DNA of 64,000 bases, from assembly GCA_030447925.1 (NCBI GenBank), contig JAUJNX010000003.1:62001-126000 (forward strand), read 5' to 3'. A model generated the notes under the pieces. That model did not search any database, was not told the origin of the DNA, and saw only the letters and a program-made list of their open reading frames with translations. The first letter of the stretch is position 1. Every line of letters starts with the position of its first letter. Below, piece by piece: positions 3,975-48,065 of this stretch. The stretch is from Egibacteraceae bacterium (GTDB taxonomy: Bacteria > Actinomycetota > Nitriliruptoria > Euzebyales > Egibacteraceae). A program made the position numbers and the translations under genes.

Positions 3975-4008
3975 CACTACCGGCGTGGCGGCTGGCGAGA
4001 GTTGGACA
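3975..4008 (-). promoter_or_regulatory. bipartite transfer promoter, copy A
   Basis: On the minus strand: TGTCCAA (4008-4002), 17 bases, GCCGGTAGTG (3984-3975). The same boxes with the same 17-base gap occur at four other places in the window, each before an operon start. This copy stands 62 bases upstream of the 61-aa gene start at 3912. Downstream it continues CCTATGACGGCCCTCGCCCC, nearly identical to copy B. Confidence 0.7.
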
Positions 4009-4112
4009 GCTGGCTGACGCGGGCCACCGCCGCCCAGCCCACCAGGTGACCACCGCCGCCCTCCACGAGGGGGAGCGGTTCACTCCACGATGATCCCGAC
4101 CTCGGACCTGCA

Positions 4113-4284
4113 GTGACCCGCGACACCGACGACAACTACGTCGCCCTCGCCGAGGCCCGCCCGCGTCGACGCGCTCGTCGCCGGCGACCACGACCACGAC
4201 CTGCTCACGGCCAGGACCGCCATCCCCGTTCTCTCCCCCCGCGCGTCCCTCGACCGGCTGGTCGAGGTCGGCGGGGATCGGTGA
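4113..4284 (+). pseudogene. PIN-domain toxin remnant, C-terminal part, frameshifted
   Basis: One frame gives TRDTDDNYVALAEA. After a one-base shift near 4160 it continues ARVDALVAGDHDHDLLTARTAIPVLSPRASLDRL and stops at TGA 4282-4284. This matches the end of VapC-type PIN ribonucleases, where D-x-D-D and AGDxD-LL hold the last acidic metal ligands and PVLSP is conserved. The N-terminal half with the first catalytic aspartate is missing, and no antitoxin partner is adjacent. Confidence 0.65.
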
Positions 4285-4365
4285 GGCCGGAGCGCCCGGC
4301 GCCGTTGACCTCCGCGTCTGAGGGCCCGAGGGCCTGCCAAGTCGTGGTGTGCGAAGCTGAGGGGG

Positions 4366-34432: not shown

Positions 34433-34466
34433 TGTCCAAGGAGACCCAGGCGGGGCGCCGGTAGTG
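34433..34466 (+). promoter_or_regulatory. bipartite transfer promoter, copy D
   Basis: TGTCCAA (34433-34439), 17 bases, GCCGGTAGTG (34457-34466), then GGGTGACAG. It stands 37 bases before the 47-aa gene that leads into the AbiEi gene, pointing toward it. Confidence 0.75.
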
Positions 34467-34503
34467 GGGTGACAGCACGATCCCCGAACCCCTGGAGACG
34501 CCG

Positions 34504-34647
34504 ATGACCCCCGCGACCGAGCAGCTGTGCAGAACCACGCTCGTTGAGCAGCTGCTCGCCGACCCGCCGTGCACCCTCGCGTCCGTGCTGGACCTGGCCC
34601 CCGGCTCGCTCGCGCCGGCCGGGCGGCTAGCGGAGGCGGGGCGGTGA
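34504..34647 (+). CDS. 47-residue peptide gene leading the AbiEi operon
   Basis: ATG 34504, with GGAG at a good distance, encodes MTPATEQLCRTTLVEQLL followed by a short tail ending LAEAGR. Its TGA overlaps the GTG start of the next gene (GTGA). It follows promoter copy D, so it occupies the same place as the leader peptides after copies C and E. Confidence 0.6.
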   Translation: MTPATEQLCRTTLVEQLLADPPCTLASVLDLAPGSLAPAGRLAEAGR

Positions 34648-35327
34648 GCAGCCGACTGGGCGCGCTGGGCAGGCTGGCCGACCTCGCCGAGCATCAGCAC
34701 GGGCAGTTCACCCTCGCCCAGGCCGGCCGGTGCGACGTCGACGCCGACCGCGTCGACCAGCTGGTCGCTGCGCGGCTGCTGGAGCCGGTCGCCGCCGGCG
34801 TGGTCCGCCTCCGCGGCGGGGCGCGGCATCCGCGGTCGCAGCTGTACGCCGCCTGGCTGATGCTGAACCCCGAGGTGCCCGCCCGGCGGCGGCGCGGCCC
34901 GGACTGCGGTGTGGTGTCGCACCTGTCGGCGCTGGCGCTGCACGGTCTGCCGGGGGTCGAGCCGCGTGGCAGGCCCGCCGAGTTCACCGCGCCGGCAGCG
35001 CTGGTCGCACCGCACGCCTCGGTGACCGTCGCCGACCTCGCCGAGTGCGACTGGCAGGTGCTCCACGGGCTGCCCGTCACCCGGCCCGAGCGGGCGCTGA
35101 TGGACCTGGCCCTTGACGGCGTCGACTTCGGCCAGCTGGGGCGCCTCGCCGATGACCTGGTCCGGGCAGGCCTGGCTGACGAGCAGATCCTCGCCGACGC
35201 GCTGGACCGCGCGCTGCTGGTGTTCCAGCGTCACCGCCAATCGCCGACGACCGCGGCGGCGGCGCGGCCGTGCCGAGGCGATCGGTACCGGTGCTTGCAC
35301 AGCCGGCTCGTGCCGGCCGCGGATTAG
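34644..35327 (+). CDS. abiEi: AbiEi-family antitoxin of a type IV toxin-antitoxin system
   Basis: A 227-residue protein. The N-terminal winged helix reads GRLADLAEHQHGQFTLAQA, then LEPVAAGVVRLRGGARHPRSQLYAAWLML, the AbiEi antitoxin N-terminal pattern. VVSHLSALALHGLPGV and VTVADLAECDWQVLHGLPVTRPERALMDLA are the conserved C-terminal segments. AbiEi proteins bind their own promoter and counter AbiEii. No toxin follows directly; the convergent HIT gene overlaps its end. A second AbiEi and a toxin follow at 35841-37674. Confidence 0.85.
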   Translation: MSSRLGALGRLADLAEHQHGQFTLAQAGRCDVDADRVDQLVAARLLEPVAAGVVRLRGGARHPRSQLYAAWLMLNPEVPARRRRGPDCGVVSHLSALALHGLPGVEPRGRPAEFTAPAALVAPHASVTVADLAECDWQVLHGLPVTRPERALMDLALDGVDFGQLGRLADDLVRAGLADEQILADALDRALLVFQRHRQSPTTAAAARPCRGDRYRCLHSRLVPAAD

Positions 35328-35809
35328 CCGTAGGCGTCGGCGGTCACCTCGTGGATCGCGCGGGTCAGCGCGTGGCGCAGCGGGCGGTGGCGGTCGCCCA
35401 GCGCGTGATCGGGTCCGTTGCGGTCGGGGTAGCGCCACACCGGCCCGCGCCGGTAGATCTCGGGTTCCCACAGGTAGCGGGGGTGCACGTGGCCGTGCAG
35501 CTGGTGGTGGCTGTTGCCGAGCACCTCGTAGTTGAGCCGCCAGAACTCCGGGTCGGCCGCACCGCAGGCGAGCTGGACGGCCTCGCCGAGCAGCGCCAGG
35601 TCGTACAGGAACGCCGCCCGCCGCGCGCGGGGCAGCTCGACGAGCTGATCGACCCCGGGGTCCTCGTACAGCAGCAGGCTGTAGCCGGGCAGGTGCTGGG
35701 TGTCGCCAATCACCGCCCACCCGGTGCGCATGCGCGCGAGCACCGTCGGGTTCTCGCCGCGCTCGGCCGCCCCGACCCGGTCACTGCGCCAGTCCGTGTC
35801 CGTGTCCAC
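35324..35809 (-). CDS. HIT-like hydrolase
   Basis: A 161-residue protein from GTG 35809. VLGNSHHQLHGHVHPRYLWEP contains H-x-H-x-H-x, the histidine triad that carries the nucleotidyl intermediate. The preceding LPGYSLLLYEDPGVDQLVELP fits the HIT N-terminal strands. These enzymes hydrolyse dinucleotides or nucleotide phosphoramidates. It lies between two AbiEi genes, divergent from the second by 31 bases and overlapping the end of the first by four. Confidence 0.75.
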   Translation of the reverse strand: MDTDTDWRSDRVGAAERGENPTVLARMRTGWAVIGDTQHLPGYSLLLYEDPGVDQLVELPRARRAAFLYDLALLGEAVQLACGAADPEFWRLNYEVLGNSHHQLHGHVHPRYLWEPEIYRRGPVWRYPDRNGPDHALGDRHRPLRHALTRAIHEVTADAYG

Positions 35810-35840
35810 CTGACCACCGTCCTAGCACAGGAGCCGTGCC

Positions 35841-36497
35841 GTGAAGGAACTGCAACACCTCGCCCGCCTGGTCGACCTCGCCGAGGGCCAGTACGGCCTG
35901 GTCACCGTCGCCCAGGCGACCGGCCGCGGCGTCCCGCCCCGCCGCCTTGACGACCTGGTCGACGGCGGCGTACTCGAGCCGGCCGCCGATGGGGTGGTCC
36001 GTCTCCGCGGCGGCGCCCGCCACCCCCACCCGCGGCTGCTGGCGGCTTGGCTGCTGCTGGACCCCGCTACACCTGCGTGGAGCCGGCCGGCACCTGCCGG
36101 CGGGGTCGTGTCGCACACCTCGGCCGTGCAGCTGTACGGGATCGGCGACCGACCCGGTCCCGGTCACGAGTTCACCGTCCCCCGCCCCGCGCCGGGCGTC
36201 GCGCACGCCACCGTCCACGTCGCCGACGTCGACGACACCGATTGGCGCGAGCTGCACGGCCTGCCCGTCACCCGGCCCGGCCGCACGCTGGTCGATCTGG
36301 CCGTGGGCGGCACGCTGGACCTCGACGAGCTCGGGCGCGTCGCAGACGGGCTGATCCGCGGCCGCTGGGCCGACCACGAGGACCTGAGCGCGGCACTGGA
36401 CCGCCATCTGCGCGCCACCGGCCAGCGCGGCGACGGGGCTGCCTGGCTCGACGGTCTGCTCGCCGCGGCCGGTCGCGATCCGGCGTCCGCCGGCTGA
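35841..36497 (+). CDS. abiEi: AbiEi-family antitoxin, second copy
   Basis: A 218-residue paralog of the protein at 34644: ARLVDLAEGQYGLVTVAQATGRGVPPRRLDDLVDGGVLEP, VVRLRGGARHPHPRLLAAWLLL, VVSHTSAVQLYGI, WRELHGLPVTRPGRTLVDLAVGG. The next gene, seven bases later, is its likely toxin partner. The two antitoxins may cross-regulate. Confidence 0.9.
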   Translation: MKELQHLARLVDLAEGQYGLVTVAQATGRGVPPRRLDDLVDGGVLEPAADGVVRLRGGARHPHPRLLAAWLLLDPATPAWSRPAPAGGVVSHTSAVQLYGIGDRPGPGHEFTVPRPAPGVAHATVHVADVDDTDWRELHGLPVTRPGRTLVDLAVGGTLDLDELGRVADGLIRGRWADHEDLSAALDRHLRATGQRGDGAAWLDGLLAAAGRDPASAG

Positions 36498-36504
36498 CCC
36501 GCCA

Positions 36505-37674
36505 ATGACCACCTACGACGAGGCAGGCGACCTGGAGCCGCATGTCGGCGCCGAGTTCCGCCAGGCGTTTCCCACCTGGGCGGCGTTGCGCGGCGAGGTC
36601 GCCGACCGCGCCCGCTATCCCGAGTTCGACACCGACCGCGCGGTCCGCCAGATCCTCATGGCCGACTTCCTAACCCGGCTGTCTCGCGACGAGGTGTGGA
36701 TCGTGCAGGGGTCGCTGGGGCTGCCCGCCCGCCCGCCGCGCGACATGGACTGGCCCGCCGACTTCCGCGTGCCGGGCGTCACCGGCGTCGACCAGGCCCA
36801 CCTGCTCGCCCGCGCCGCCTTCGACATCGACCTGTACGCACCGGGGATCGACACGCGCACCCGCACCGCGCCGGACCCGGCCGCCGCCTACGGCGCCGCC
36901 GCCGACGCTGCGGTCCGCGCCGCGTGCGCGCCGGCAGACCGCCCGTCGGACCCGGCCGGCCGCGGGCTGGGCGGACTGGTGCACTACCGGCCCGGCGAGC
37001 TGGTCGTGCGGCCCGGCGGGAAGGTCACCGGCACCGTCATCGCGCAGCCCGTCGACCCCCGCTTCCCCGACGTGCGGCCCGTCGACGATCCTGTGGCGAT
37101 CGAGGTGGACATCAGCCCGGGCAGCGGCCAGCAGTTCACCAGCCCCCCCGACCGCGGCGAGCGGCCGCTGGTCGCGCTGGACCTCCCCGGCTTCGAGCCA
37201 ACCCGGCCGCTGCTGTACCCGCTCGCCGACTACCTCGCCGACAAGATCGCTCTGCTCACCGGGCCGCCGATCTCCCACCGCCCGCTGCCCGCCGGGCCGT
37301 GGCACCGGTACAAGGACCTGTTCGACCTGCACTTCGTGCTGCGCACCTGCCGCATCGAGCCGCACCGGGTGCGCACCGCGATCGCGACCAACCGGAACTG
37401 GCGCCGGCTGCCCGCCGGTCTGCCCCGCCCCTACCGGCTGTACGGCCAGCCCCCCCACCAGCCGGGCGAGCCCGCGGTCCCGTGGCACGAGGGCGTGGAA
37501 AAGCTGCGCGCCAGCTCCCCGCAGCTGGCCCGCTACCCCTCCTTCGCCGCCATGTCGACTGGCATCGCCACCTACGTCGACACGGTCGCCGCCTCACCCA
37601 GCCCGCACCGTGGCGAACTGGGGCCGGGACGCCAGCCGGGCCCGCCGGGCGGGGCCACCCTGGCTCCCTACTGA
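36505..37674 (+). CDS. abiEii: AbiEii/AbiGii-family nucleotidyltransferase toxin
   Basis: A 389-residue protein. VWIVQGSLGLPARPPRDMDWPADFRV is the nucleotidyltransferase core: the G-S-L loop, then R-x-x-D-x-D metal ligands. AIEVDIS could add a third carboxylate. YPLADYLADKIALLTG and HRYKDLFDLHFVLRTCRIEPHRVRTAI are the C-terminal helices typical of AbiEii. The toxin is thought to block growth by transferring nucleotides to RNA or proteins. It stabilises the element with the AbiEi protein encoded just upstream. Confidence 0.85.
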   Translation: MTTYDEAGDLEPHVGAEFRQAFPTWAALRGEVADRARYPEFDTDRAVRQILMADFLTRLSRDEVWIVQGSLGLPARPPRDMDWPADFRVPGVTGVDQAHLLARAAFDIDLYAPGIDTRTRTAPDPAAAYGAAADAAVRAACAPADRPSDPAGRGLGGLVHYRPGELVVRPGGKVTGTVIAQPVDPRFPDVRPVDDPVAIEVDISPGSGQQFTSPPDRGERPLVALDLPGFEPTRPLLYPLADYLADKIALLTGPPISHRPLPAGPWHRYKDLFDLHFVLRTCRIEPHRVRTAIATNRNWRRLPAGLPRPYRLYGQPPHQPGEPAVPWHEGVEKLRASSPQLARYPSFAAMSTGIATYVDTVAASPSPHRGELGPGRQPGPPGGATLAPY

Positions 37675-37721: not shown

Positions 37722-39014
37722 CTATAGGGCCAGCCGGGCGTTGGTGTCGATCAGCGGCCACTCGTCGGGGGCGACGCGGTGCTGGACGACGGCGGTGCGG
37801 TCGGCGACCTTCCACAGCGCGCGGCCCTGCGCGAGCTCGGGCAGCAGCGCGGCCTCGGCGGCGGTGAGGCCGAGCAGTCCGCGGGCCTGGGCGACCTGGT
37901 CGGGTCCTTGGCGCAGCAGGACGCGGGTCTGGGTGTCGGCGAGCAGGCCGGCGGCGACCTTGGCGGTGGCGGTGCCGTCGTCGGCCTGGGCTTGCAGGTC
38001 GCTGATGCGGTGGGCGACGGCGATGTTGGCGACCCCGTAGGCGCGGGCGAGCTTGAAGGTGGCCTGCAGGTACTTGGCGGTGTGCTCAGAGCCCAGCAGC
38101 GCCCAGACCTCCTCCAGCACCTGGTAGCGGCGGGGGGCGGGCCCACCGCCGCTGCCGGCCATGATCGACTGCAGCCAGCCGGTGGCGGCGACCATGACCA
38201 GCCGCAGCGCGCGCGGGTCGGAGTGGACGGCGGACAGGTCCAGCACGAGGCCGCGGCCGCCCGGGTTGACGGTGACGGTGGAGGGGCCGTCGAACATGCC
38301 GCGCAGGTCGCGGTCCAGCAGCTTGCCCAGGGCGTGGCGGACGGGGGCGAGCTCGCGGGCGAGTTCGGGTGCGGTGAGTCCGGACTGGTCGACCATCTCG
38401 CTGGTCGGGTCGGCGAGCAGGCGTGCCGCGTCGGCCAGGACGGGCGGCCGGCCGCGGGGGGAGCGGGTGAGCGCGGCGACGGCCCAGCCGAGCGCGGCGT
38501 CCTCGAGCGGGGTGAGCGCCCGGTCCAGCAGCTCGGTGACCAGCGCGACGATCAGCCGGGTCCGTTCGGTGAGCAGCGTGTCGGGGTCGGTGCTGGTGCC
38601 CCCGTCCAGCGGGTTGATGCGGGTGGTCCCGCCGGGCCGCAGCCGCAGCAGCGCCAGGCCGAGCGACTCCGCGGTCGCCTCGTACTCGCCCTTGGGATCG
38701 AGGACTGCGGTCCAGCGGGGCAGGCCGCCGGGGGAGCCGAGCACGCCGACGGAGCGGTTGAGCAGCGTCTTGACCACGGTGGACTTGCCGGAGCCGATCT
38801 CGCCGAGCACGAGCATGTTGGGGGAGGTCAGCACGCCCTGGGTGTACAGCTCGAACGGGTCGTAGCAGAACGCGCCGCCGCCGCTGAGCAGGTCGTTGCC
38901 GAGGTACACCCCGCGTGCGCCCAGCCCTTGGCTGGCCTGGAAGGGGTAGACGGCGCCGAGGTTGGCGGTGGTGGCGCGGTGTCGGGGCAGCCGCAGCCCG
39001 GGCGGCACGATCAT
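37722..39014 (-). CDS. VirB4/TraC-like conjugation ATPase
   Basis: A 430-residue ATPase. Walker A is VLGEIGSGKSTVVKTLL (residues 70-80). RWTAVLDPKGEYEATAESLGL is the next conserved strand, PRRYQVLEEVWALLGSEHTAKYLQATFKLARAYGVANIAVAHR the Walker B region and following helix, and ADTQTRVLLRQGPDQ a later motif. It lacks the N-terminal half of full VirB4; the SCO6880-type gene just upstream (overlap ATGA) supplies that, so the two act as a split VirB4. It is the last gene of the secretion operon. Confidence 0.9.
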   Translation of the reverse strand: MIVPPGLRLPRHRATTANLGAVYPFQASQGLGARGVYLGNDLLSGGGAFCYDPFELYTQGVLTSPNMLVLGEIGSGKSTVVKTLLNRSVGVLGSPGGLPRWTAVLDPKGEYEATAESLGLALLRLRPGGTTRINPLDGGTSTDPDTLLTERTRLIVALVTELLDRALTPLEDAALGWAVAALTRSPRGRPPVLADAARLLADPTSEMVDQSGLTAPELARELAPVRHALGKLLDRDLRGMFDGPSTVTVNPGGRGLVLDLSAVHSDPRALRLVMVAATGWLQSIMAGSGGGPAPRRYQVLEEVWALLGSEHTAKYLQATFKLARAYGVANIAVAHRISDLQAQADDGTATAKVAAGLLADTQTRVLLRQGPDQVAQARGLLGLTAAEAALLPELAQGRALWKVADRTAVVQHRVAPDEWPLIDTNARLAL

Positions 39015-40519
39015 GCCGTCACCGCCCTGGCGGCCAGGCCGCGGGCGAGGGGGAGGGTGACCGCGACGGCTTGGTCGTGGCGGCCGTCCAGGGGCCGCAG
39101 TTCCACGCCGCAGGAGGCGGCGAGCTGGACGGTCTCGTCGCTGGCGCGGTCCAGCTCGTCGGGGTCGGCGGCGGTGACCACGACCAGGCCGGCGTAGTCC
39201 AGCTCGCCGAACCCGGCGACGAGTTCCTGTTCGCGTTCGTCGACGGCGGCGGCGGCGCGGCGGTGGCGGGCGCCGACCCGGAAGCCGCGCGACTGGCGGT
39301 GCTCGGCGTCGGACTCCAGCCGGGCGGCGTCGCGGACGACGCGCCGCTGGCTGGCCGACCGCGACACCGGTTCGTAGCTGACGGTCACGGTGCGGGTCGC
39401 GCCAGCGTGCAGCAGCAGGTCGCGCAGCCAGTCGGCGCGGACCTCCAGCAGCGGCCAGCGGGCGACGAAGAACGCCCGGTGGTAGGCGCCGTCGGCCTGC
39501 CAGTGGGTCCAGCTGTCGGCGGTGGCCAGCGGCCCGGCGTTGCGGGGCAGCACCACGCCGGCGCTCTCGCCCAGGCTGCGGCGCCGCTGGTCCAGGACGG
39601 CTGCGCAGGCGGGATCCAACCGCACCCGCACGGCGCGGGCGACGTCGCCGGGGGACAGCGGCGAGGACACCAGCAGCCCGGCGGTCTCCATCGCCCTGGT
39701 GAAGTGGGCGAGCTCGCCGAGCAGCGTCTCGACCGCGGCGGCTCGCCGGTCGCGGCGGTGGCGGGAGGCGGGCAGCCGCGACGCGGCCACCGACAAGGTG
39801 ACCAGCACCTCGTGGCTGGTGATGAGCGGGCCGGCACTGGCGAGCAGCTGCTGGTAGGCGGCGTGGGCGGCGGGAACCGGCTGGGCGGCGAGGTGCTCGG
39901 CGAGGTAGTCCTGCTGCTGGCGGCTGCCGGCGGGAGCGGTCCACTGGCTCCACCGGATCGCCGCCACCGGGGTCCGCTCGGCGCAGAACGCCGCCAGGGT
40001 GGTGCCCCACCACTGCACCAGCTGGTCCTGGTCGGCGGGTTCCAGGAGAGTGAACCGGCGCCCGGCGACACGGACGGTCGCTGCCCAGGTGTCGGTGACG
40101 GCGTCGTGGACGACGCCGAGCTGGCCGATGCCGGCGCCGTAGGCGAAGTCCGCGGCGCTGACGGCGAGCAGGGACTGGCCGGCCAGCGGCGGGGGGAGGA
40201 CCGGCTGCTGCCCGTCGGCGCCGCCGGCGAGGGGCAGTTGCGCGTACCAGCGGTTGCGCCCGCCGATCCGCCCGCGCAGCCAGCGGACGGCGGCGGGAAG
40301 GCTGGCCAGGGCGGGCTGGCCGTTGAGGCGGGCGATCCCCACGCCAGCGCCGACGGCGAACACCGCGACGCCGGCGGTGGCGTGCTGGTAGGCGGCGATG
40401 AAGACGCCGGCGATCAGGGCGGCGGCGGTGACGGCCACCTGGATGCCGGTGAGGCCGAACACCACGCCGATGTCGTCCAGGGGGTGGAGCCGGTAGCGGC
40501 GGGCAGCGGCGTCGGTCAC
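39011..40519 (-). CDS. SCO6880-family transfer protein
   Basis: A 502-residue protein from GTG 40519 with AGGAGG at ideal spacing. Two transmembrane helices near the N-terminus (GVVFGLTGIQVAVTAAALIAGVFIAAYQ and GVAVFAVGAGVGIARL) resemble the PrgI/VirB3 hairpin. A soluble domain follows (DTWAATVRVAGRRFTLLEPADQDQLVQWWGTTLAAF, LITSHEVLVTLSVA, THWQADGAYHRAFFVARWPLLEVRADWL), as in the N-terminal domain of VirB4. It forms one functional unit with the ATPase downstream. Confidence 0.9.
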   Translation of the reverse strand: MTDAAARRYRLHPLDDIGVVFGLTGIQVAVTAAALIAGVFIAAYQHATAGVAVFAVGAGVGIARLNGQPALASLPAAVRWLRGRIGGRNRWYAQLPLAGGADGQQPVLPPPLAGQSLLAVSAADFAYGAGIGQLGVVHDAVTDTWAATVRVAGRRFTLLEPADQDQLVQWWGTTLAAFCAERTPVAAIRWSQWTAPAGSRQQQDYLAEHLAAQPVPAAHAAYQQLLASAGPLITSHEVLVTLSVAASRLPASRHRRDRRAAAVETLLGELAHFTRAMETAGLLVSSPLSPGDVARAVRVRLDPACAAVLDQRRRSLGESAGVVLPRNAGPLATADSWTHWQADGAYHRAFFVARWPLLEVRADWLRDLLLHAGATRTVTVSYEPVSRSASQRRVVRDAARLESDAEHRQSRGFRVGARHRRAAAAVDEREQELVAGFGELDYAGLVVVTAADPDELDRASDETVQLAASCGVELRPLDGRHDQAVAVTLPLARGLAARAVTA

Positions 40520-41961
40520 GAGGTCCTCCTGTGCGGGGCGGGCGGCAGCGGCAGCGGTCCGGGCGGTGCGGCGGCGGCGGGTGGGGCAGGCGTGGGGGGG
40601 GGCGGGCCGCCCGCCCCGACCGGCGGCGGGGTCGGCGGTGGAGCGGCCGCGGTGGGCGGCGTCCGGGGCGCCGGCGGCGGTGCGGCGGCTGCGGGCCGCG
40701 AGGGATGCGGGGGGCGGCGGGCACCCGGGGGGCGGTCGGGAGCTCGGGGGCGGCGGAACCGGCGTCGCCGGCGGGATCTCGGGGCCGGCCTGCAGGTCCG
40801 GCGGTGGGGGCAGCGGCGGCGCCGGCGGGACCTGCGGCGCGGCGGCGGCGGGCGGGGGCGGCGGGATCGGCGACGCGGGCGGGATCGGCGACGCGGTGGG
40901 CAGTGGCGGTGCCGGCGGCACCGCCGGTCCGGGCGGCACGGTCGGTCCCGGCGGGATGTCGGGCGGCGGGGGAACCCGCGTGAGGGCGACCCGCCGGCGG
41001 CGGGCGGGGAGGAGGGGCCGGGCCCGCCGCCGGAGGACGGCGCGGACGGCGGGGCGGGCGGCGGGGGGGCCGATGCCGGCCCGCCGCCGGCGAGCCCGGC
41101 GCCCTTGAGGTAGTAGCCGTACTGCAGGCCCTGCATGGCGGCGCGGGCCGGGGCGCCGCGGATGCCCTGGGCGACCGTGGCGGCCTGCACGACCTGGAAC
41201 AGCTGCAGCAGCGTGTAGGGGATGAACGCGGCGATGAGCAGCAGCACCGCCCCGCCGAGCACGCCGGCAGGGTCGACGTCGCCCTCGGCGCCGCCGTTGA
41301 TCGCTTCGGCGCCCAGCCGCAGGGCGACGACGATCACGAACTTGGACAGGATCAGCGCCAGGCCCGCCTCGACGGCTTTGTGCCACAGCGTCTTGGCGGC
41401 GGGCCAGACGCGGGCGGCCAGCAGCAGCGGCGCGAGGGCGACGAGCAGGTAGATGAGCGCCTCGCGGATCACCAGTTCGGCCCACAGCAGGAACCCAGCA
41501 AGGGCGACCACGCCGACGAGCAGACCGGTCAGCGGGCCGCCGCCGGGGAGGGTGAGGTTGCCAACGGCCCGGCTGATCGCCGACCCGTCGCCGTAGATCG
41601 CGGCGGACGCCGCGTCGGTGAAGTCCAGCAGCAGCCCGGTGACGCCGGTGAGCAGGACGATCCCTGCCACCGACACTGGCGCCTCGACGGCGAAGGCGCG
41701 GGCGACGCCGCCGGGGTCGCCGGCGAGCAGCCCCTGCAGCAGCGCCAGGAACAGGCAGCCGACCATCAGCGCGGCCGCGAGCGCCAGGACCGCGCGCAGC
41801 ACCTGCTGGGCGGACGGGTCGGTCCACCAGCCGGAGGTGAACGACACCCGGGTGGTGGCGTCCAGCAGCACCGCGAGCATCTGCTGCAGCACCTGGGTGG
41901 CGGTGCGGTTGACCAGCTCTTCCAGCCAGGTGCCGAAGCTGTCGTACACCAGCGAGCTCAT
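40516..41961 (-). CDS. TrbL/VirB6-like membrane protein with disturbed proline-rich tail
   Basis: A 481-residue protein from ATG 41961 with at least six hydrophobic helices: VLRAVLALAAALMVGCLFLALLQG, VSVAGIVLLTGVTGLLLDF, LTGLLVGVVALAGFLLWAEL, ALIYLLVALAPLLLAARVW, LALILSKFVIVVALRL and GGAVLLLIAAFIPYTLLQLF. This is the SCO6881/TrbL channel component. The C-terminal ~170 residues are odd: from about 40990 to 40720 this frame is arginine-rich while the neighbouring frame is the expected proline-rich tail (VPPPPDIPPGPTVPPGPAVP). After 40720 this frame becomes proline-rich again. Two compensating indels are likely. Confidence 0.85.
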   Translation of the reverse strand: MSSLVYDSFGTWLEELVNRTATQVLQQMLAVLLDATTRVSFTSGWWTDPSAQQVLRAVLALAAALMVGCLFLALLQGLLAGDPGGVARAFAVEAPVSVAGIVLLTGVTGLLLDFTDAASAAIYGDGSAISRAVGNLTLPGGGPLTGLLVGVVALAGFLLWAELVIREALIYLLVALAPLLLAARVWPAAKTLWHKAVEAGLALILSKFVIVVALRLGAEAINGGAEGDVDPAGVLGGAVLLLIAAFIPYTLLQLFQVVQAATVAQGIRGAPARAAMQGLQYGYYLKGAGLAGGGPASAPPPPAPPSAPSSGGGPGPSSPPAAGGSPSRGFPRRPTSRRDRPCRPDRRCRRHRHCPPRRRSRPRRRSRRPRPPPPRRRSRRRRRCPHRRTCRPAPRSRRRRRFRRPRAPDRPPGARRPPHPSRPAAAAPPPAPRTPPTAAAPPPTPPPVGAGGPPPPTPAPPAAAAPPGPLPLPPAPHRRTS

Positions 41962-42280
41962 GGCGGGCCCAGCCGGCCGCGCCGAACAGGGAGTTGACGA
42001 TCGAGGGGGCCAGCGCGGCCAGGCCGGCGCCGATCCCGCCGCCGATGGCCATCTTGCGACCGTTGCCCGCCTGGTAGCTGTTGCCGTGGTGCTCGGCGAG
42101 CCCCCAGGTGGCGGCGCCGTACAGCATCGCGGCCAGGCAGCCCCACAGCGCCAGCTGGGCGCCCCAGTTGAGCAGGGTCTGGAAGAACGCCGCGCCGGGC
42201 AGCCCCTGGGCGCTGGGGTCGGCGTTGACCAGGCCCGGGGGCGCGGCGGCGAGCACGAACGCGAGGTTGAGCGGGTGCAC
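41960..42280 (-). CDS. DUF6112/VirB2-like small membrane protein, 3' end uncertain
   Basis: GTG 42280 with AGGAGA starts MHPLNLAFVLAAAPPGLVNADPSAQGLPGAAFFQTLLNWGAQLALWGCLAAMLYGAATWGLA, then KMAIGGGIGAGLAALAPSIVNSLFGAAG. Two transmembrane helices around a short basic loop are the VirB2/TrbC-like pattern of DUF6112 proteins that precede TrbL. A stop should occur near the TrbL start (41961), and a TGA is present there one frame away. In the sequence as given the frame stays open to 39011, suggesting a one-base indel near 41970. Confidence 0.75.
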
Positions 42281-42317: not shown

Positions 42318-42351
42318 CACTACCGGCGGGCGCGGCGGACCCGCTTGGACG
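42318..42351 (-). promoter_or_regulatory. bipartite transfer promoter, copy B
   Basis: On the minus strand: CGTCCAA (42351-42345), 17 bases, GCCGGTAGTG (42327-42318), then CCTGTGACGGCCCTCACCCC. It lies 37 bases upstream of the GTG start (42280) of the secretion operon. It is back-to-back with copy E. Confidence 0.8.
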
Positions 42352-42390: not shown

Positions 42391-42424
42391 CGTCCAACCC
42401 GGCGGGGCCGCGCCGCCGGTAGTG
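42391..42424 (+). promoter_or_regulatory. bipartite transfer promoter, copy E
   Basis: CGTCCAA (42391-42397), 17 bases, GCCGGTAGTG (42415-42424), then GGGTGACCGCTCGTCGAGGAGG. It drives the DNA-processing genes beginning with the leader at 42457. Downstream, GCTCsTCGAGGAGG and CAGGCATGCC are shared with copy C. Confidence 0.8.
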
Positions 42425-42456: not shown

Positions 42457-42540
42457 ATGCCCGCACCGCATCGCACCGACGCCGGCCGAACGATCCGCTC
42501 GGGCCGGCCCTGCCGGGCCCGGCGCGGCCGCCGCGCCTAG
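42457..42540 (+). CDS. 27-residue arginine-rich leader peptide
   Basis: ATG 42457, ten bases after AGGAGG (42441-42446), reads 27 codons rich in arginine and stops at TAG 42538-42540. The next start, ATG 42542, follows after one base and has no ribosome site of its own, so its translation should depend on this leader. The same arrangement occurs after promoter copy C. Confidence 0.55.
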   Translation: MPAPHRTDAGRTIRSGRPCRARRGRRA

Positions 42541-42541: not shown

Positions 42542-45500
42542 ATGCCCAGGAGACGGGCGAAGCCGGTCGGCCGGCAGCTGTCGCTGGACGATCTGCTCGG
42601 CGAGCAGCCCGCCGCGGCGCCGGAACACGAACCGCAAGGGAAGGGACGGGGCGATGAGCGTGGAGCACGCGGAGGCGGCCCGCCGCCACCTGCAGCAGCA
42701 CCGCCCGGCGATGTACGCCGAACTGATGGCCGACCCGGCGGCGGGGGAGCGGTACCTGGAGGAGCTGGGCGGCCAGGTGACCGACCGGCTGGCGGTGGTC
42801 TGCGACCAGCTGCTGGCGTCGTCCGCGGTGGACCCGACGGCGGACCCGCAGCGGCGGACGGCGATGGCGCAGGCGATGGCGCAGGAGCTGGTCTACAGCG
42901 AGCTGGTGTGGATCGGCGACGAGCAGACCGAGGCGATGGTCGGCCCGTCGGGCGGCTACGAGGGCTGGGAGCCGGGGGTCGAGCCGCTGACGGCGACCCT
43001 GGACGACGACCTGGAGTAGACCCGCCGGCGCCGACCGCGGCGCCGGCCGGCGCGCGGGCCAAGGCCGCCGCCAACCTGGCCGCGCTGGCGACGCTGCGGC
43101 TCCTGGAGTCCGAGCGGCGGCCCGCGACCGCCGCCGAACAGGACACGCTGGCGGGCTGGTCGGGCTGGGGCGCGCTGCCGCAGGTCTTCGACGACACCGC
43201 AGACGCCTGGGCGCAGGTCCGCGCCGACCTCGCCGAGCTCCTCGACGCCCAGGAGTGGGCCGCTGCACGCGCGTCGACGGTCAACGCCCACTACACCAGC
43301 CCGCAGGTGGCCGAGGCGATGTGGTCCACCGTCGCCGCGCTGGGGTTCACCGGCGGGCTGGTCCTGGAGCCCGGCTGCGGGTCGGGGACGTTCCTGGGTC
43401 TGGCGCCGCCGGGCGCGCGGCTGCTGGGGGTGGAACTGGAACCGGTCACCGCCCGCATCGCCCAGGCCCGCTACCCCCACGCCGATATCCGCGCCGAGGG
43501 GTTCGAGACCACCAGGCTGGCGTCGGCGTCGGTCGACCTGGTGATCGGCAACGTCCCCTTCGGCAACTACCGGCTGCACGACCCGTTCCACAACCCCGAC
43601 CGCCACAGCATCCACAACCACTTCCTGCTCAAGGCCGCCGACCTGGTCCGCCCCGGCGGGATCGTGGCGGTGCTCACCAGCCGCTACACCCTCGACGGGC
43701 AGGGCCGCACCATCGCCGCGCGCCGGCAGCTGGCCGCCGGCGCCGACCTGCTCGGCGCCGTCCGGCTGCCCTCCGGCGCGTTCGCCGACGTCGCCGGCAC
43801 CGACGCCGTCATCGACCTGCTGGTGCTGCGCCGACGGCTGGACGGCGAGGCGCCGCTGCCGACCGCCTGGGAGCACACCGCGCCGCTCGCGCTGGCGGAG
43901 GGCACGGTGGCGGTCAACGAGTACTTCGCCGCCCGCCCGCACCTGGTGCTGGGCCGGCCGCGGCTGGGGCGCGGGCTGTACCGCGACGGCGAGCTGATCG
44001 TCGACCCCGACGACGCCCGCCCGCTGGGCGACGCGCTCGCCGAGGCGACCGCGGAGATCGTGGCCGACGCCGGCCGCCAGCAGCGCACCTGGGTGGCGCC
44101 CCGGCCCGCCGCGGTACCCGTCGCCGAGCCGCAGGCGGCGCGCGACGACCGCCCTGCGGTGGCGGGGGCCGACGAGGGCTCCTACCTGCTGGACCGGGCA
44201 GGCACGGTCTACCGCGTCGCCGGCGGCCGGGCCGAGCCGGCGGCGGTGAAGCCGCAGCGCGACCTGCCCGAGCTGCGCGCGCTGATCGGGCTGCGCGACG
44301 CCGTCGGCGACGTCCTCGCCCGCCAGCACGACGACGCCGCAGCGCTCGCCGACGCCCAGCAGCGGCTGCACCAGCTGTATGACCGCTACGTCGGCCGGTA
44401 CGGGCCGCTCAACCGGTTCACCGTCTACCAGCACGGGGTCGACCCCGACACCGGTGCGCCGCGGCTGCGGCGGCGCTACCCGTCCATGGGCGGGTTCCGG
44501 ACGGACCCAGGCGTCCACCTGGTCCTGGCGTTGGAGGTCTTCGACGCCGAGACCCAGACCGCGGCCAAGGCGGCGGTGTTCGACCAGCGGGTGATCGCCG
44601 CGGCCGCGCCGCGTACGACCGCCGACACCGCACAGGACGCCCTGGCGATCAGCCTGGAGGAACGCGGCCGCGTCGACGTGGACCGCATCGGCGCGCTGCT
44701 CGGCGTCGACGCGGACCAGGCCTCCACGGCGCTGGGCGACCTGGCCTTCGACGACCCCGCCGACGGGACCTGGCAGACCGCCGAGCGGTACCTGTCGGGC
44801 AATGTCCGCGCGAAGCTGGCCGCCGCCCGCGCCGCCGCCGCCCGTGACCCGCGCTGGGCGCGGCACGTCGCGGCGCTGGAGGCGGTCCAGCCGGCCGACC
44901 TCACCCCAGCCGAGATCGACGGGCGCCTGGGCGCCCCGTGGATCCCCGCCGCCGATGTCAGCGCGTTCACCGAACAGGTGCTGGCCGCCCGCCTGCGGAT
45001 CGAGCACGCGCCGCTGACCGCCAGCTGGACCGTCGAGGCGGCCCGCTGGGCCCGCTCGGGGGTGGTGATGACCAGCGAGTGGGGCACCGGCCGCGCCGAT
45101 GCCGTCCGCATCCTGGAGGCGTCGCTGAACCAGCAGGCCGTCACCGTCTACGACGAGCTCGACGACGGCCGGCGGGTGGTCAACGCCGCCGAGACCCTCC
45201 TGGCCCGCGAGAAGCAGGACGCGCTGGGCCGCCGCTTCGCCGAGTGGCTATGGGAGGACCCCGCCCGCGCGCAGCGGCTCGCCGGGGTCTACAACGAGCG
45301 GTTCAACAGCGACGTCGTCGCCCGCTACGACGGCAGCCACCTGCTGTTCCCCGGGCTGGCGGCGACCTGGACGATGCGGCCCCACCAGGCCGACGCGGTC
45401 TGGCGGATCGTGACCGAGGGCGGCGCGCTGCTCGGCCATGTGGTCGGGGCCGGTAAGACCGCCACCATGGTCGCCGCGGCGATGGAGCTCCAGCGCCTCG

Positions 45501-47998
45501 GGCGGGTCGCCAAGCCCGCCTTCGTGGTCCCCAACCACATGCTCGAGCAGTTCACCCGCGAGTTCCTGCAGCTGTACCCGGCCGCCCGGGTGCTGGTCGC
45601 CGCACCCGAGGACGCCAGCCGCGACGGCCGTCAGGCGTTCGTGGCGCGCTGCGCCACCGGCCGCTGGGACGCGGTGATCCTGACCCACAGCGCCTTCGGG
45701 CGGCTGCCCGTCAGCGCCCAGGCCCGCGCCGACTACGTCGGGCGGCAGCTGGACCGGTTCCGCGCCGCCCACGCCGAGCTGGCCGACGCCGGCGGCCGCC
45801 GGACGGTCAAGCAGCTGGAGAAGGCGATCAAGAACCTGGAGGAGAAGCACGCCCGGCTGCTGGCCGAGCAGCACAAGGACGACGGCGTCACCTTCGAGCA
45901 GACCGGCATCGACTACCTGCTCGTCGACGAGGCGCATGCGTTCAAGAACCTGCCGTTCCCGACCCGCATCCAGGGGGTCGGCGGGCAGGGCTCTCAGCGC
46001 GCCGAGGACCTGTTTCTGAAGCTGGACCTGCTGCGCCGCCGCCATGGCCGGCAGGTCGCCACCTTCGCCACCGCCACGCCGATCGCCAACTCGGTCGCCG
46101 AGATGTACGTGATGCAGTCCTACCTGCAGCCCGACGCGCTCGAGCAGCGGGGCATCGGCCCGTTCGACGCCTGGGCGGCGACGTTCGGGTCGACCGTGAC
46201 CGCGATGGAGCTCGCCCCCGACGGCGGCTCCTACCGGATGCACACCCGCTTCGCCCGCTTCCGCAACGTCCCCGAGCTGACCGGCCTGTTCGCCCAGGTC
46301 GCCGACGTCCAGACCGCCGAGACGCTGCAGCTGCCCACCCCCGCGATCGCCGGCGGCGGCCCGCAGACCGTGGTGGTCCCCGCCTCCGACGGGCTGCGCG
46401 GCTACGTCGCCGACCTGGTCCGCCGCGCCGAGCAGGTCCGCGCCCGCGCCGTCGACCCGGCCGAGGACAACATGCTCAAGGTCACCGGCGACGGCCGCCG
46501 CGCGGCGCTTGACCTGCGCCTGGTCGGCGAGGAGCCCGACCCGGCCGGCGGCAAGATCGCCGCGGTCGCGGACCGCACGGCCGCGATCTACCGGGAGCAC
46601 CGCGACCGGGTGTACCGCGGCCGCGACGGCGCCCCCTCACCAGTCACCGGCGCGTTGCAAGTGGTCTTCTGCGACCTGGGCACCCCGCGCCCAGGCGGCG
46701 GCTGGAGCGTCTACCAGGCCGTCCGCGACGCGCTGGCCGACCGGGGAGTCCCCGCATCGGCGATCCGGGTGGTCCACGACGCCGCCAGCGACCGGGACAA
46801 GGCGGCGCTGTTCGCCGACTGCCGCGCCGGGCGGGTCGCAGTGCTGCTGGGCTCCACCGAGAAGATGGGCGTCGGCACCAACGTCCAGGACCGCCTGGTC
46901 GCTCTGCACCACCTCGACGCCCCCTGGCGGCCCGCCGACATCGAGCAGCGCGAGGGGCGCATCGTCCGCCAGGGCAACCAGAACGCGCAGGTGCAGATCC
47001 TGCGCTACGTCACCGAGGGGTCCTTCGACGTCTACATGTGGCAGACGCTGGAACGCAAGGCCGGGTTCATCGGCCAGGTCGTCAGCGGGCGTACCGCCAC
47101 CCGCGAGGTCGAGGAGGTGTCCGCCGCCGCCCTGTCCTTCGCCGAGGTCAAGGCGCTGGCCACCGGCAACCCGCTGGTGCTGGAGAAGGCCGAGGTCGAC
47201 ACCGAGGTTGCCCGGCTGCAGCGGCTCGCCCGCGCGCATGAACGCGACCGGCGCAGCCTCGCCGGCGCCGAGCAGTCCGCGCTGACGTCGGCGGCGGCGC
47301 ACACCGCCCGGGCGGACCGCATCGACGCCACGATCGCGGGCCGCCGCGACACCCGCGGCGACCGGTTCGCCATGCGCGTCGACGAGGCGACGTTCACCAG
47401 CCGCGGCGACGCCGGCGCGGCGTTGCGCGCGCAGCTACTGGCCGCCCGCAGCGACTTCGTCGCCTCCGGCGAGCCGGTCGCCGGCCCGCTCGGCGCGCTG
47501 GGCGGCTACCCGCTGCGCGTCGAGGTCCGCCGCAGCCTGCTCGCCACCGACGGCGACAACGTCGACATCGACGTGCTGTTCGACGCCCCGCAGCCGCTGC
47601 GGGTCACCTTCCGCCGCGGCGAGCTCGGCGCCGACCGCGACCCCCGCCAGACCGTCCAGCGGCTCGAGCGTGCGCTGCACAACCTGGAGGCCGACGCCGA
47701 CCGCGCCCGGCGCACCGCCGACCTCGCGGTCCAGGAGGCGGGCAGGGCGGCGCAGCGCCGCGCGCTGGCCTTCCCCGACGCCGAGCGGCTCGCCCAGCTG
47801 CAGGTCCGCCAGGACCAGATCGAGGCGCAGCTGGCCGCCGACCTCGCCGAGCCCGACCTTCCCGCCGCCGAAACCCCGCTGGCCGGGACCCCTGCGGCCG
47901 ACGCCCAAGGCCCCGCCGCCCCTCCGGCCGCCCTCCCCGCAGCCGACCCGCCGGGGCCCGCGCCCGCCGCGCCGCCCGCCGACGGCCTGTCGCTGTGA
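42542..47998 (+). CDS. N6-DNA methylase / SNF2-type helicase fusion protein
   Basis: The open frame of 1818 codons encodes a large DNA-processing protein. Recognisable homology begins near residue 165 (AKAAANLAALATLRLLESERRPATAAEQDTLAGWSGWGALP). The methylase core is LVLEPGCGSGTFLGLAPPGARLLGVELEP with VIGNVPFGNYRL (N-x-P-F near residue 337). The helicase has GAGKT (~970), DYLLVDEAHAFKNLPF (~1131) and MGVGTNVQDRLVALHHLDAPWRPADIEQREGRIVRQGNQ (~1440-1480); a coiled coil follows. Residues ~38-160 are low-complexity and overlap another gene, and no start codon lies just before the conserved part. The true N-terminus is unresolved. Confidence 0.85.
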   Translation: MPRRRAKPVGRQLSLDDLLGEQPAAAPEHEPQGKGRGDERGARGGGPPPPAAAPPGDVRRTDGRPGGGGAVPGGAGRPGDRPAGGGLRPAAGVVRGGPDGGPAAADGDGAGDGAGAGLQRAGVDRRRADRGDGRPVGRLRGLGAGGRAADGDPGRRPGVDPPAPTAAPAGARAKAAANLAALATLRLLESERRPATAAEQDTLAGWSGWGALPQVFDDTADAWAQVRADLAELLDAQEWAAARASTVNAHYTSPQVAEAMWSTVAALGFTGGLVLEPGCGSGTFLGLAPPGARLLGVELEPVTARIAQARYPHADIRAEGFETTRLASASVDLVIGNVPFGNYRLHDPFHNPDRHSIHNHFLLKAADLVRPGGIVAVLTSRYTLDGQGRTIAARRQLAAGADLLGAVRLPSGAFADVAGTDAVIDLLVLRRRLDGEAPLPTAWEHTAPLALAEGTVAVNEYFAARPHLVLGRPRLGRGLYRDGELIVDPDDARPLGDALAEATAEIVADAGRQQRTWVAPRPAAVPVAEPQAARDDRPAVAGADEGSYLLDRAGTVYRVAGGRAEPAAVKPQRDLPELRALIGLRDAVGDVLARQHDDAAALADAQQRLHQLYDRYVGRYGPLNRFTVYQHGVDPDTGAPRLRRRYPSMGGFRTDPGVHLVLALEVFDAETQTAAKAAVFDQRVIAAAAPRTTADTAQDALAISLEERGRVDVDRIGALLGVDADQASTALGDLAFDDPADGTWQTAERYLSGNVRAKLAAARAAAARDPRWARHVAALEAVQPADLTPAEIDGRLGAPWIPAADVSAFTEQVLAARLRIEHAPLTASWTVEAARWARSGVVMTSEWGTGRADAVRILEASLNQQAVTVYDELDDGRRVVNAAETLLAREKQDALGRRFAEWLWEDPARAQRLAGVYNERFNSDVVARYDGSHLLFPGLAATWTMRPHQADAVWRIVTEGGALLGHVVGAGKTATMVAAAMELQRLGRVAKPAFVVPNHMLEQFTREFLQLYPAARVLVAAPEDASRDGRQAFVARCATGRWDAVILTHSAFGRLPVSAQARADYVGRQLDRFRAAHAELADAGGRRTVKQLEKAIKNLEEKHARLLAEQHKDDGVTFEQTGIDYLLVDEAHAFKNLPFPTRIQGVGGQGSQRAEDLFLKLDLLRRRHGRQVATFATATPIANSVAEMYVMQSYLQPDALEQRGIGPFDAWAATFGSTVTAMELAPDGGSYRMHTRFARFRNVPELTGLFAQVADVQTAETLQLPTPAIAGGGPQTVVVPASDGLRGYVADLVRRAEQVRARAVDPAEDNMLKVTGDGRRAALDLRLVGEEPDPAGGKIAAVADRTAAIYREHRDRVYRGRDGAPSPVTGALQVVFCDLGTPRPGGGWSVYQAVRDALADRGVPASAIRVVHDAASDRDKAALFADCRAGRVAVLLGSTEKMGVGTNVQDRLVALHHLDAPWRPADIEQREGRIVRQGNQNAQVQILRYVTEGSFDVYMWQTLERKAGFIGQVVSGRTATREVEEVSAAALSFAEVKALATGNPLVLEKAEVDTEVARLQRLARAHERDRRSLAGAEQSALTSAAAHTARADRIDATIAGRRDTRGDRFAMRVDEATFTSRGDAGAALRAQLLAARSDFVASGEPVAGPLGALGGYPLRVEVRRSLLATDGDNVDIDVLFDAPQPLRVTFRRGELGADRDPRQTVQRLERALHNLEADADRARRTADLAVQEAGRAAQRRALAFPDAERLAQLQVRQDQIEAQLAADLAEPDLPAAETPLAGTPAADAQGPAAPPAALPAADPPGPAPAAPPADGLSL
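42654..43019 (+). CDS. 121-residue hypothetical protein overlapping the helicase frame
   Basis: ATG 42654, after GGGAAGG, encodes a normally composed helical protein (VEHAEAARRHLQQHRPAMYAELMADPAAGERYLEELGGQVTDRLAVVCDQLLASS, then MAQAMAQELVYSELVWIGDEQTEAMVGP) ending LTATLDDDLE. The same bases in the helicase frame give only glycine/arginine/proline-rich sequence, so this frame is the coding one here. No family is recognised. Confidence 0.65.
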   Translation: MSVEHAEAARRHLQQHRPAMYAELMADPAAGERYLEELGGQVTDRLAVVCDQLLASSAVDPTADPQRRTAMAQAMAQELVYSELVWIGDEQTEAMVGPSGGYEGWEPGVEPLTATLDDDLE

Positions 47999-48031
47999 CC
48001 CCGCCGACGGGCGGCGCCGCGGCCACGCGGA

Positions 48032-48065
48032 TGTCCAACCAGGAGGTCAGACCCCGCCGGTAGTG
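48032..48065 (+). promoter_or_regulatory. bipartite transfer promoter, copy C
   Basis: TGTCCAA (48032-48038), 17 bases, GCCGGTAGTG (48056-48065), then CCTGTGACAGCTCCTCGAGGAGG. It precedes the leader at 48096 and the operon of muralytic enzyme, primase and relaxase. Confidence 0.8.

Follow-up and report, generated by a model that had tools for sequence, protein, structure and literature searches.

The promoter signature of the ECF41 sigma factors is TGTCACA-n16-CGTC (PMC3426412). Among mobile elements, the ConjTn1549-family integrative conjugative elements (ICEs) of streptococci share a sigma factor said to have a possible part in regulating transfer (PMC4701971), SigN (ZpdN) of the Bacillus subtilis plasmid pBS32 leads to cell death after DNA damage (PMC6751061), and the SetCD regulon of the SXT/R391 ICEs is a multi-operon transfer regulon under an element-encoded master switch (PMC4344509). 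The locus described here resembles each of these in part. With the ConjTn1549 family it shares an ICE-encoded sigma proposed as the controller of transfer, but it belongs to another phylum and has another conjugation module, and the available account of that family gives no promoter set. As with SigN, the proposed sigma is carried by a mobile replicon, whereas the role described for SigN is in cell death, in an account that mentions no transfer regulon. The likeness to SetCD, as far as the published outline goes, lies in an element-borne master switch of several transfer operons. SetCD is an activator complex rather than a sigma factor. The literature searched held no description of how transfer is switched on in T4SS-type conjugative elements of the present kind.

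The window, a 64,000-nucleotide stretch of the genome of an Egibacteraceae bacterium, carries an element that has the relaxase, coupling protein, T4SS ATPase, and integrase of an ICE. A serine recombinase at C20:131210-132724, 5 kb beyond the window, is presumed to be part of the element; att sites, sought as words shared between the presumed ends, gave nothing above the control. The motif YGTCCAA-N17-GCCGGTAGTG (box A, spacer, and box B) is present five times in the window, with both strands represented and every copy before a gene start. The five copies reported by the sequence-only reading were all recovered with the exact 17-nt gap, where 100 dinucleotide shuffles gave an expectation of 0. 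Box B lies 30 to 62 nt from the start codon, within the 30 to 65 bases that had been claimed, and all sites fall in what a simple gene caller takes to be non-coding sequence. Housekeeping sigma factors recognize TTGACA and TANNNT hexamers separated by a spacer of 16 to 19 bp; judged by eye, neither hexamer stands at the conserved columns.

Site 1 (positions 3975 to 4008, minus strand; TGTCCAA-N17-GCCGGTAGTG) lies 62 nt from the start of a 61-aa gene (3727 to 3912, minus strand), which its position makes a candidate excision factor. Site 2 (34433 to 34466, plus strand) stands 37 nt before a 47-aa open reading frame that begins a plus-strand stretch (34504 to 37674) with genes for an AbiEi-like protein (34644 to 35327; weak match), AbiEi (35841 to 36497), and AbiEii (36505 to 37674); a gene on the opposite strand (35324 to 35809, minus strand) lies inside this stretch, between the AbiE-like genes. 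Site 3 (42318 to 42351, minus strand; box A CGTCCAA) is 38 nt from the T4SS operon (37722 to 42279, minus strand), which encodes a TrbL/VirB6-like protein (weak match), a 502-aa protein, and a TraG-like ATPase. At the remaining two sites the closest start is that of a short leader open reading frame ahead of the main gene: 32 nt separate site 4 (42391 to 42424, plus strand; box A CGTCCAA) from a 27-codon leader followed by a methylase-helicase gene of 1818 aa (42542 to 47998, plus strand), and 30 nt separate site 5 (48032 to 48065, plus strand) from a 13-codon leader followed by the operon for VanY/SLT, Toprim primase, and TrwC relaxase (48134 to 53701, plus strand). These two leaders resemble each other. 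The gene for the T4SS coupling protein (31721 to 33484, minus strand) is directly 3' of the candidate sigma gene considered below, and Tad/Flp-type pilus genes (T2SSE and T2SSF) are found together with that of an HTH_17 protein at 20689 to 30675 (minus strand); a search of the window ahead of the candidate sigma gene and directly upstream of this Tad block found no copy of the motif.

Mean pairwise identity among the five sites is 0.91 for box A and 1.00 for box B, compared with 0.38 for the spacer and 0.34 for the 60 nt upstream (random 60-mers, 0.31), and with spacers and upstream sequence so close to what chance gives, the boxes look selected. The 30 nt downstream of box B have a mean identity of 0.39, rising to 0.80 for sites 1 and 3, and TGAC follows box B by 3 or 4 nt in all five. 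One additional match in the window, at up to three mismatches, lies within a predicted gene. The search of the rest of the genome that the earlier reading had proposed, over 4,657,027 bases, found no exact match besides these five. Up to two mismatches brought 6 additional matches (1 with one and 5 with two), for a total of 11 against 21 for the reversed-pattern control, and the one-mismatch copy (contig C22) has no predicted same-strand gene within 1.5 kb downstream. An exact search of genome_contigs and viral_contigs for the 20-base form that includes the TGAC extension came back empty; these two sets possibly exclude the own genome. Near copies in 18 related loci did not exceed shuffles, and a comparison of upstream regions for general 40-bp similarity, made for one contig, was swamped by the GC-rich background. 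In the related genome G035, a relative of the 61-aa gene is preceded by a 14-mer that contains box B. This 14-mer was dropped as a candidate; it stands without box A, and its one-mismatch copies are rarer than those of the reversed control.

Conservation upstream of homologous operons, which the earlier reading had made a test of its proposal, was found in architecture and not in letters: none of the 29 other genomes in the order, of which 20 belong to the same family, has the exact motif, but four related, syntenic elements, in the genomes G045, G041, G046, and G035, have the same design with box pairs of their own. The G045 motif, TGTCAC-N17-GGCCTTCTC, has 4 exact copies genome-wide, every one inside the element, and no one-mismatch copy in G045; none lies upstream of the G045 relaxase. 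G041 has TGTCAC-N18-ACAACTCCCTT in 4 exact copies, all element-borne, plus one with 2 mismatches, and a search of four genomes at up to one mismatch found no copies beyond the 4 exact ones. G046 and G035 share GTCAC-N19-(N)CAGTCCCT, with 5 sites each (two of those in G046 with one mismatch), one site apiece for xis, Tad, T4SS, VanY, and relaxase, the G035 sites being spread over four contigs. In the form GTCAC-N19-SCAGTCCCT there are 3 exact copies in G046 and 3 in G035, all ahead of transfer or excision genes, and 0 in three other genomes; one-mismatch copies outside the elements number 2 in G046, 4 in G035, 2 in G000, 1 in G041, and 1 in G045, compared with 2, 9, 2, 2, and 1 for the reversed control.

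Across the 24 sites of the five elements, GTC is invariant and the second box begins 23 to 26 nt after the initial base of box A. The first box is similar throughout (NGTCAC or YGTCCA; TGTCAC in 15/24 and GTCAC in 19/24), and the second is element specific. T4SS and VanY/SLT genes are targets in all five elements, and relaxase, Tad pilus, and excisionase genes in most. In the four other elements box A lies 22 to 398 nt from the next predicted start, with some starts distant or overlapping, a spread that is partly due to crude gene calls. The recurrence in four elements of an own box pair with GTC, at similar spacing and before largely the same operons, gives stronger support to the proposal of a promoter-type transfer regulon. 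The claim that no promoter of this form has been described did not hold up: two boxes at -35/-10 spacing, in one orientation and upstream of predicted starts, are the geometry of an ECF-sigma promoter, of which the ECF41 signature, as given in outline, is an example (PMC3426412).

How far this design extends was surveyed in several ways. A search for hexamer pairs without a seed, run on the window and 12 related contigs in regions predicted to lie upstream of genes, recovered TGTCAC-N17-GGCCTT.. in three regions of G045 (0 in 5 shuffles) and ATGTCA..TCGAAGACAACTC in three regions of G041 (0 to 1 in 5 shuffles); it gave 0 for the window itself and overlooked the sites of G046. The motif-bearing members of these 12 contigs are G045, G041, and G046, and no motif of this type was found in the other nine, several of them truncated by contig ends and one (C19) being another T4SS locus from the window's own genome. 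G035 was added later via another protein; it was the one new motif-bearing element among 21 VirB2-like loci in 20 of 396 genomes of the phylum. At 81 other T4SS-ATPase loci (80 from genome_contigs and 1 viral), box pairs did not exceed those of control seeds (5, compared with 6 to 24), in a scan that overlooked two of the five window sites and all of those in G046. The automatic scans are thus incomplete, and absence of the motif elsewhere is weak evidence.

All five elements seem to carry a gene for a divergent sigma factor of their own. For G041, G046, and G035, sequence comparison identifies this as an ECF-like protein. The best NCBIfam matches are sigma models (E values of 0.0013, 1.7e-4, and 0.0014, respectively, all below the cut-offs of the models), and PHROG 1740, "RNA polymerase sigma factor," is matched at 6.1e-5, 1.2e-7, and 3.2e-4. 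Aligned as a group to 20 ECFs with hhalign, the three are homologous over sigma regions 2 and 4 (95.7%, E 9e-9, 160 columns; best of 60 shuffles, 1.9e-3), and with the ECF profile members of the group rank 1/40 and 1/42 among the proteins of their elements. The Pfam model r4_2 is matched below its cut-off in two of the three (4.9e-4 and 0.032), and a PDB sequence search with the sigma-like proteins returned no significant match (for the G041 group, the ECF sigma CnrH at E 0.53). The predicted structure of the G041 protein (pLDDT 61) places ECF sigma L at rank 1 with an E value of 0.26, most rows being unrelated helical proteins. No relatives of the sigma-like proteins were found in plasmids or viral contigs, and among the listed matches to canonical sigma region 4 (PF08281), of 328, none fell inside the G000, G045, G041, and G046 elements. 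In eight of the nine motif-less contigs (all but C19), none of 24 proteins (the top 3 of each contig, 90 to 420 aa) had an alignment with the ECF profile longer than 84 columns. The best-scoring of them (40.3) is an integrase-like protein that matches over 46 columns.

The window's candidate is a 255-aa protein (33481 to 34248, minus strand) whose gene overlaps the start of the coupling protein gene. G045 shares this protein, and its likeness to ECF sigmas comes from predicted fold and paired profile only, the 255-aa protein having no match to the family models searched. With Foldseek, 40 of the best 50 of 216 rows (E up to 10) are sigma factors or chains of initiation complexes or holoenzymes, an example being SigK (E 0.072, probability 0.94), but no match is as strong as E 0.001. 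The model, built from two sequences, is of low quality (pLDDT 57 on average). Superposed over its full length it fits badly, at a query TM near 0.2 and an rmsd that mostly exceeds 15 A; the region-4 part alone superposes (rmsd 2 to 7 A), and KorA fits there too (7/50 rows). Against the 20 ECFs, the window/G045 pair scores 32.2 over 128 columns in hhalign, above the maximum of 60 shuffles (22.4) and of 19 other window/G045 protein pairs (19.6). As a single sequence the 255-aa protein ranks 3/67 with a score of 20.5, less than the best reversed control (23.4), and its G045 counterpart is outside the top 5 of 46 proteins, with two other HTH proteins ahead of it. The G041/G046/G035 and window/G045 groups do not align convincingly with each other (hhalign 2.1%), and all five candidates, of 227 to 255 aa, terminate with a region-4-like helix.

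We put at roughly two in three the probability that the five sites are -35/-10 promoters of one ICE regulon read by a divergent ECF-type sigma that the element encodes. The sigma, for which the 255-aa protein is the likeliest candidate in the window, would direct host RNA polymerase to the five sites, and its production would switch on together the secretion genes, the hydrolase/primase/relaxase operon, the methylase-helicase, the AbiE-like cassette, and the candidate excision gene, triggering excision and transfer. In the related elements, a similar -35-like box would be combined with a private -10-like box, a pattern that fits co-divergence of each sigma with its promoters. The boxes could instead be a co-regulation signal bound by an activator or repressor of the element, such as the small excisionase-like HTH_17 protein, an AbiEi-like wHTH protein, or some other HTH regulator, with transcription by a host sigma. 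HTH_17 proteins occur in all five elements, AbiEi-like proteins are located under site 2, the HTH stretches of two G045 proteins (36 and 57 columns) align best to the ECF profile there, and box B, at 9 to 11 nt, is longer than the usual ECF -10. We regard such a regulator as unlikely, as the boxes are asymmetric, keep a fixed order and orientation, and are spaced like -35 and -10 elements; moreover, the HTH_17 gene is itself a motif target in four of the five elements, and no relatives of the AbiEi-like protein were found in the G045, G041, and G046 elements.

That the element borrows an ECF sigma of its host, such as one of the ECF41 type, is less probable still and would be surprising. Most sites share the ECF41 -35 box TGTCAC, the -35 to -10 distance, counted from the first T, is 23 nt in ECF41 and so close to the 23 to 26 nt here, and sigma region 4 is matched 67 times in the host genome, but the exact copies of each motif are confined to its element and the downstream box varies from one element to the next. 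The ECF41 -10 (CGTC) is at the -10 position in 0/24 sites, the -35 of the window reads YGTCCAA, the candidate sigmas leave no room for the C-terminal domain fused to ECF41, and the targets here are conjugation genes, all differences from ECF41 as it is described in outline. It is very improbable that a promoter-leader cassette was recently duplicated, or that the copies arose by chance, with no common regulation. The 80% identity of sites 1 and 3 over 30 nt downstream and the similar leaders of sites 4 and 5 would suit duplication, but the spacers and the sequences upstream are hardly more alike than chance would make them, chance predicts 0 copies, and four other elements have this architecture with different letters.

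Two GATGCGACC repeats, 23 bp apart (34283 to 34314, minus strand), precede the candidate sigma gene by about 35 and 58 nt, and as a guess this pair might be an operator that holds the gene off. That these elements form a lineage in which a fast-diverging, barely recognizable sigma of their own and about five promoters, with a -10-like box that changes along with the sigma and a -35-like box that does not, serve as a private transcription channel for the excision, pilus, secretion, and DNA-processing genes, with the GATGCGACC repeat as off-switch in the window, seems to us an evenly balanced proposition. If the sigma-regulon reading is true, one gene and about five promoters would constitute the transfer switch, and further elements could be found by searching ahead of T4SS, VanY, and relaxase genes for recurrent copies of an NGTCAC-N17-19-box. 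The elements would then provide a natural series of co-diverged sigma/promoter pairs, useful for studying the evolution of sigma specificity.

The five copies of the box A-N17-box B pair described in the sequence-only reading were all recovered exactly where it had placed them, with none expected in shuffled sequence, and a whole-genome motif search found no further exact copies in the genome of this Egibacteraceae bacterium (G000). The reported spacing of exactly 17 nt holds at all five sites, and each copy is indeed aimed at a gene start, 30 to 62 nt away (the 61-aa gene, the AbiE cassette, the type IV secretion system [T4SS], the methylase-helicase operon, and the VanY/SLT-primase-relaxase operon for sites 1 to 5, respectively). 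Box A reads TGTCCAA at three sites and CGTCCAA at two, box B is GCCGGTAGTG at all five, and TGAC follows box B after 3 to 4 nt in every case. Mean pairwise identity is 0.91 in box A and 1.00 in box B, whereas identity in the spacers (0.38) and in the upstream flanks (0.34) is near that of random 60-mers (0.31), so selection rather than recent copying appears to have preserved the boxes. Sites 1 and 3 are more alike, with 80% identity over the 30 nt downstream. Short leader open reading frames follow the putative promoters of site 4 (27 codons, 42457-42540) and site 5 (13 codons, 48096-48137); both begin with MP and end just ahead of, or overlap, the main gene start, and translational coupling with the main genes is possible.

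The window holds a T4SS-type conjugative element that includes genes for a TrbL/VirB6-like protein, a TraG-like ATPase, a coupling protein (T4CP), a TrwC relaxase, a Toprim primase, a VanY/SLT hydrolase, a Tad-type pilus block, a ParB-like protein, and a Shedu-like protein. A search for the ends of the element did not find them; a serine recombinase located 5 kb past the end of the window is presumed to belong to it. The AbiE-like cassette (34433-37674), which has its own copy of the putative promoter, lies reversed between the T4SS ATPase gene and the candidate sigma and T4CP genes; in the related element of genome G045, the ATPase and T4CP genes adjoin. Two further features were read by eye: an IS-like transposase region that appears to be frameshifted (58190-59230) and a likely HTH_17-type open reading frame of 70 aa (53740-53952, minus strand) that is absent from the gene calls. 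Some 18 to 20 kb to the left of the window, a CRISPR-like array (positions 1-1914 of locus L074, C20:42001-43914 on the window's contig) contains about 25 copies of a roughly 36-nt repeat spaced mostly at 70 to 78 nt (first 2,000 bases searched).

Conservation upstream of homologous operons, which the sequence-only reading had named as a check, held in altered form: the exact motif is absent from relatives, and syntenic loci carry box pairs of their own. The exact motif had no copies in 29 further genomes of the order, of which 20 belong to the same family, and its TGAC-extended form had no match in the genome_contigs or viral_contigs sets, which possibly lack the source genome itself. Syntenic loci, collected through a 502-aa T4SS protein in 16 of 66 genomes of the class (the source genome included), were therefore screened without a seed for repeated box pairs in upstream regions. 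This returned, above shuffles, TGTCAC-N17-GGCCTT(CTC) in G045 and ATGTCA-N-TCGAAGACAACTC in G041, each in three predicted upstream regions; it returned neither the G046 sites nor anything for the window, whose starts are missed by the gene caller. Inspection gave four sites in G045 (before the T4SS, VanY, Tad, and HTH_17 genes) and four in G041 (before the T4SS, VanY, relaxase, and HTH_17 genes), with an extra G041 site carrying two mismatches ahead of the Tad block, within a predicted open reading frame. Visual inspection of the divergent T4SS/VanY region revealed the G046 sites, which were then confirmed, and those of G035 were picked up by seeded comparison. Both genomes have five sites genome-wide, with a single site for each of xis, Tad, T4SS, VanY, and relaxase; two in G046 have one mismatch to GTCAC-N19-SCAGTCCCT, and two in G035 have T in place of S. 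The G035 sites are spread over four contigs, presumed to represent one element.

Genome-wide, the G045 motif occurs four times exactly, with no one-mismatch copy elsewhere in G045 and one such copy each in G041 and G046; the G041 motif also has four exact copies, and allowing one mismatch adds none in the four genomes. The G046/G035 pattern has three exact copies in each of its genomes and none in G041, G045, or G000, and its one-mismatch background is near the reversed-control level. Scans known to overlook sites found no such motif in nine other related contigs or 81 further T4SS-ATPase loci. In motif-less related elements (G042 C16, G059 C23, G040 C287, and G030 C24), DnaA-box-like words (TTATCCACA, CTGTGGATAA, and near forms) were seen by eye around the T4SS/VanY divergent region, near the T4SS start.

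Alignment of 24 sites from the five elements (5+4+5+5+5) reveals a common design. GTC is present in all 24, preceded by T (18), C (5), or G (1). As first box, 19 sites have NGTCAC (TGTCAC in 15), and the remaining five, which are the window sites, have YGTCCA. The second box begins 23 to 26 nt from the first base, T occupies +29 in 20 of 24 sites, and the box is element specific except for a related TCCCT-type box common to G041, G046, and G035. The distance between the boxes is that of a -35/-10 pair. In the other elements, box A lies 22 to 398 nt from the next start, as crudely predicted. The ECF41 promoter signature, TGTCACA-n16-CGTC (PMC3426412), has the -35 box TGTCAC of most of these sites, but its -10 box is not matched by them. 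We put the probability that the sites form a promoter-class regulon at about 0.9, and the proposal of a transfer regulon is supported by box pairs before transfer modules in related elements.

One motif target in four elements is an HTH_17 excisionase-like gene. An integrase lies near it in G041 and G046 (by Pfam) and in G045 (by similarity to the G041 integrase), and on the same contig in G035 (by eye). The odd target in the window is the 61-aa gene (3727-3912), whose product belongs to a small protein family and has six matches in other genomes (E values of 1e-6 to 0.006). Four of these six relatives, in loci L053, L054, L055, and L056, lie 0.6 to 6 kb from a large serine recombinase; longer stretches were viewed for all but the two weakest matches. 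Since the window element also has a serine recombinase, the 61-aa protein may, judging from its position, be an excision factor, that is, a candidate recombination directionality factor.

Among the matches listed, no canonical sigma region 4 was found inside the G000, G045, G041, and G046 elements. A reading of proteins common to motif-bearing elements picked out one of 227 to 234 aa, present in G041, G046, and G035, whose C-terminal helix-turn-helix is sigma-like. Sigma models are its top hits in NCBIfam, below cutoff, and all three versions hit PHROG 1740 ("RNA polymerase sigma factor"); two of the three also hit Pfam region 4, again below cutoff. Against a profile of 20 chromosomal ECF sigmas, 160 columns aligned with an E value of 9e-9, versus 1.9e-3 for the best of 60 shuffles, and the protein came top among the 40 element proteins tested from G041 and among the 42 from G046. 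AlphaFold modelled it with low confidence (pLDDT 61); Foldseek ranked ECF sigma L first at an E value of only 0.26 and returned SigR region 4 (probability, 0.87) together with many unrelated helical proteins.

The window and G045 have another protein in common, of 255 aa (33481-34248, minus strand, overlapping the T4CP gene start) and 240 aa (phmmer, 3e-8), which no family model matched. The model of the 255-aa protein is poor (pLDDT 57), and 40 of its best 50 Foldseek rows were, by our count, sigma-factor or initiation-complex/holoenzyme chains (SigK, SigL, SigH, sigma-E, AlgU, and others), with chain F taken by us as sigma by convention; the rest were the plasmid regulator KorA (seven) and integrative models under other names (three). 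The top row had an E value of 0.045 (probability, 0.94). Full-length superpositions gave TM-scores of only about 0.2, with rmsd mostly above 15 Å, and the region-4 part fit at 2 to 7 Å. Compared with the ECFs, the window/G045 pair scored 32.2 over 128 collinear columns, against maxima of 22.4 in 60 column shuffles and 19.6 in 19 other window/G045 pairs. Counting against a sigma reading, the 255-aa protein as a single sequence ranked third of 67, under the best reversed control, and its G045 counterpart did not place among the first five of 46. In the four NGTCAC elements, the presumed recognition helices are similar (..LKQR, ..LRQR, ..MRQR, and ..LRQQR), and that of the window, whose box is YGTCCAA, is unlike them; this apparent match between helix and box differences is suggestive only.

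A second element-specific repeat may bear on the candidate sigma gene. GATGCGACC has 11 exact copies in the window versus 1.1 expected (34283-34314, 54176-54205, and 57571-60031), flanking the ParB-like gene and also standing as a pair before the candidate sigma gene. GATGCGAC has 12 copies versus 3.7 expected, and one in 60 kb of flanking contig sequence. Ten of the 12 lie at 54 to 60 kb, on both sides of the ParB-like gene; the other two, spaced 23 bp apart, are immediately upstream of the candidate sigma gene. It is our guess that a repressor or partition protein acts on this gene.

Searches of open-licence papers on actinobacterial ICE promoters and sigmas, plasmid- or ICE-encoded sigmas, Nitriliruptor conjugation, and sigma/Tad/excisionase regulons listed no title or opening of an abstract describing this system. 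ConjTn1549 ICEs are reported to carry a sigma factor with a possible role in regulating transfer (PMC4701971), the plasmid pBS32 encodes a sigma, SigN (PMC6751061), and a review of Gram-positive conjugation mentions a sigma for ICEBs1 phrI (PMC6540685). Across the element family, an element-encoded sigma is probably the reader of the sites, and the 255-aa protein is, with somewhat less confidence, the likely sigma that reads those of the window. Most likely, the window element drives its transfer regulon with its own ECF-like sigma.
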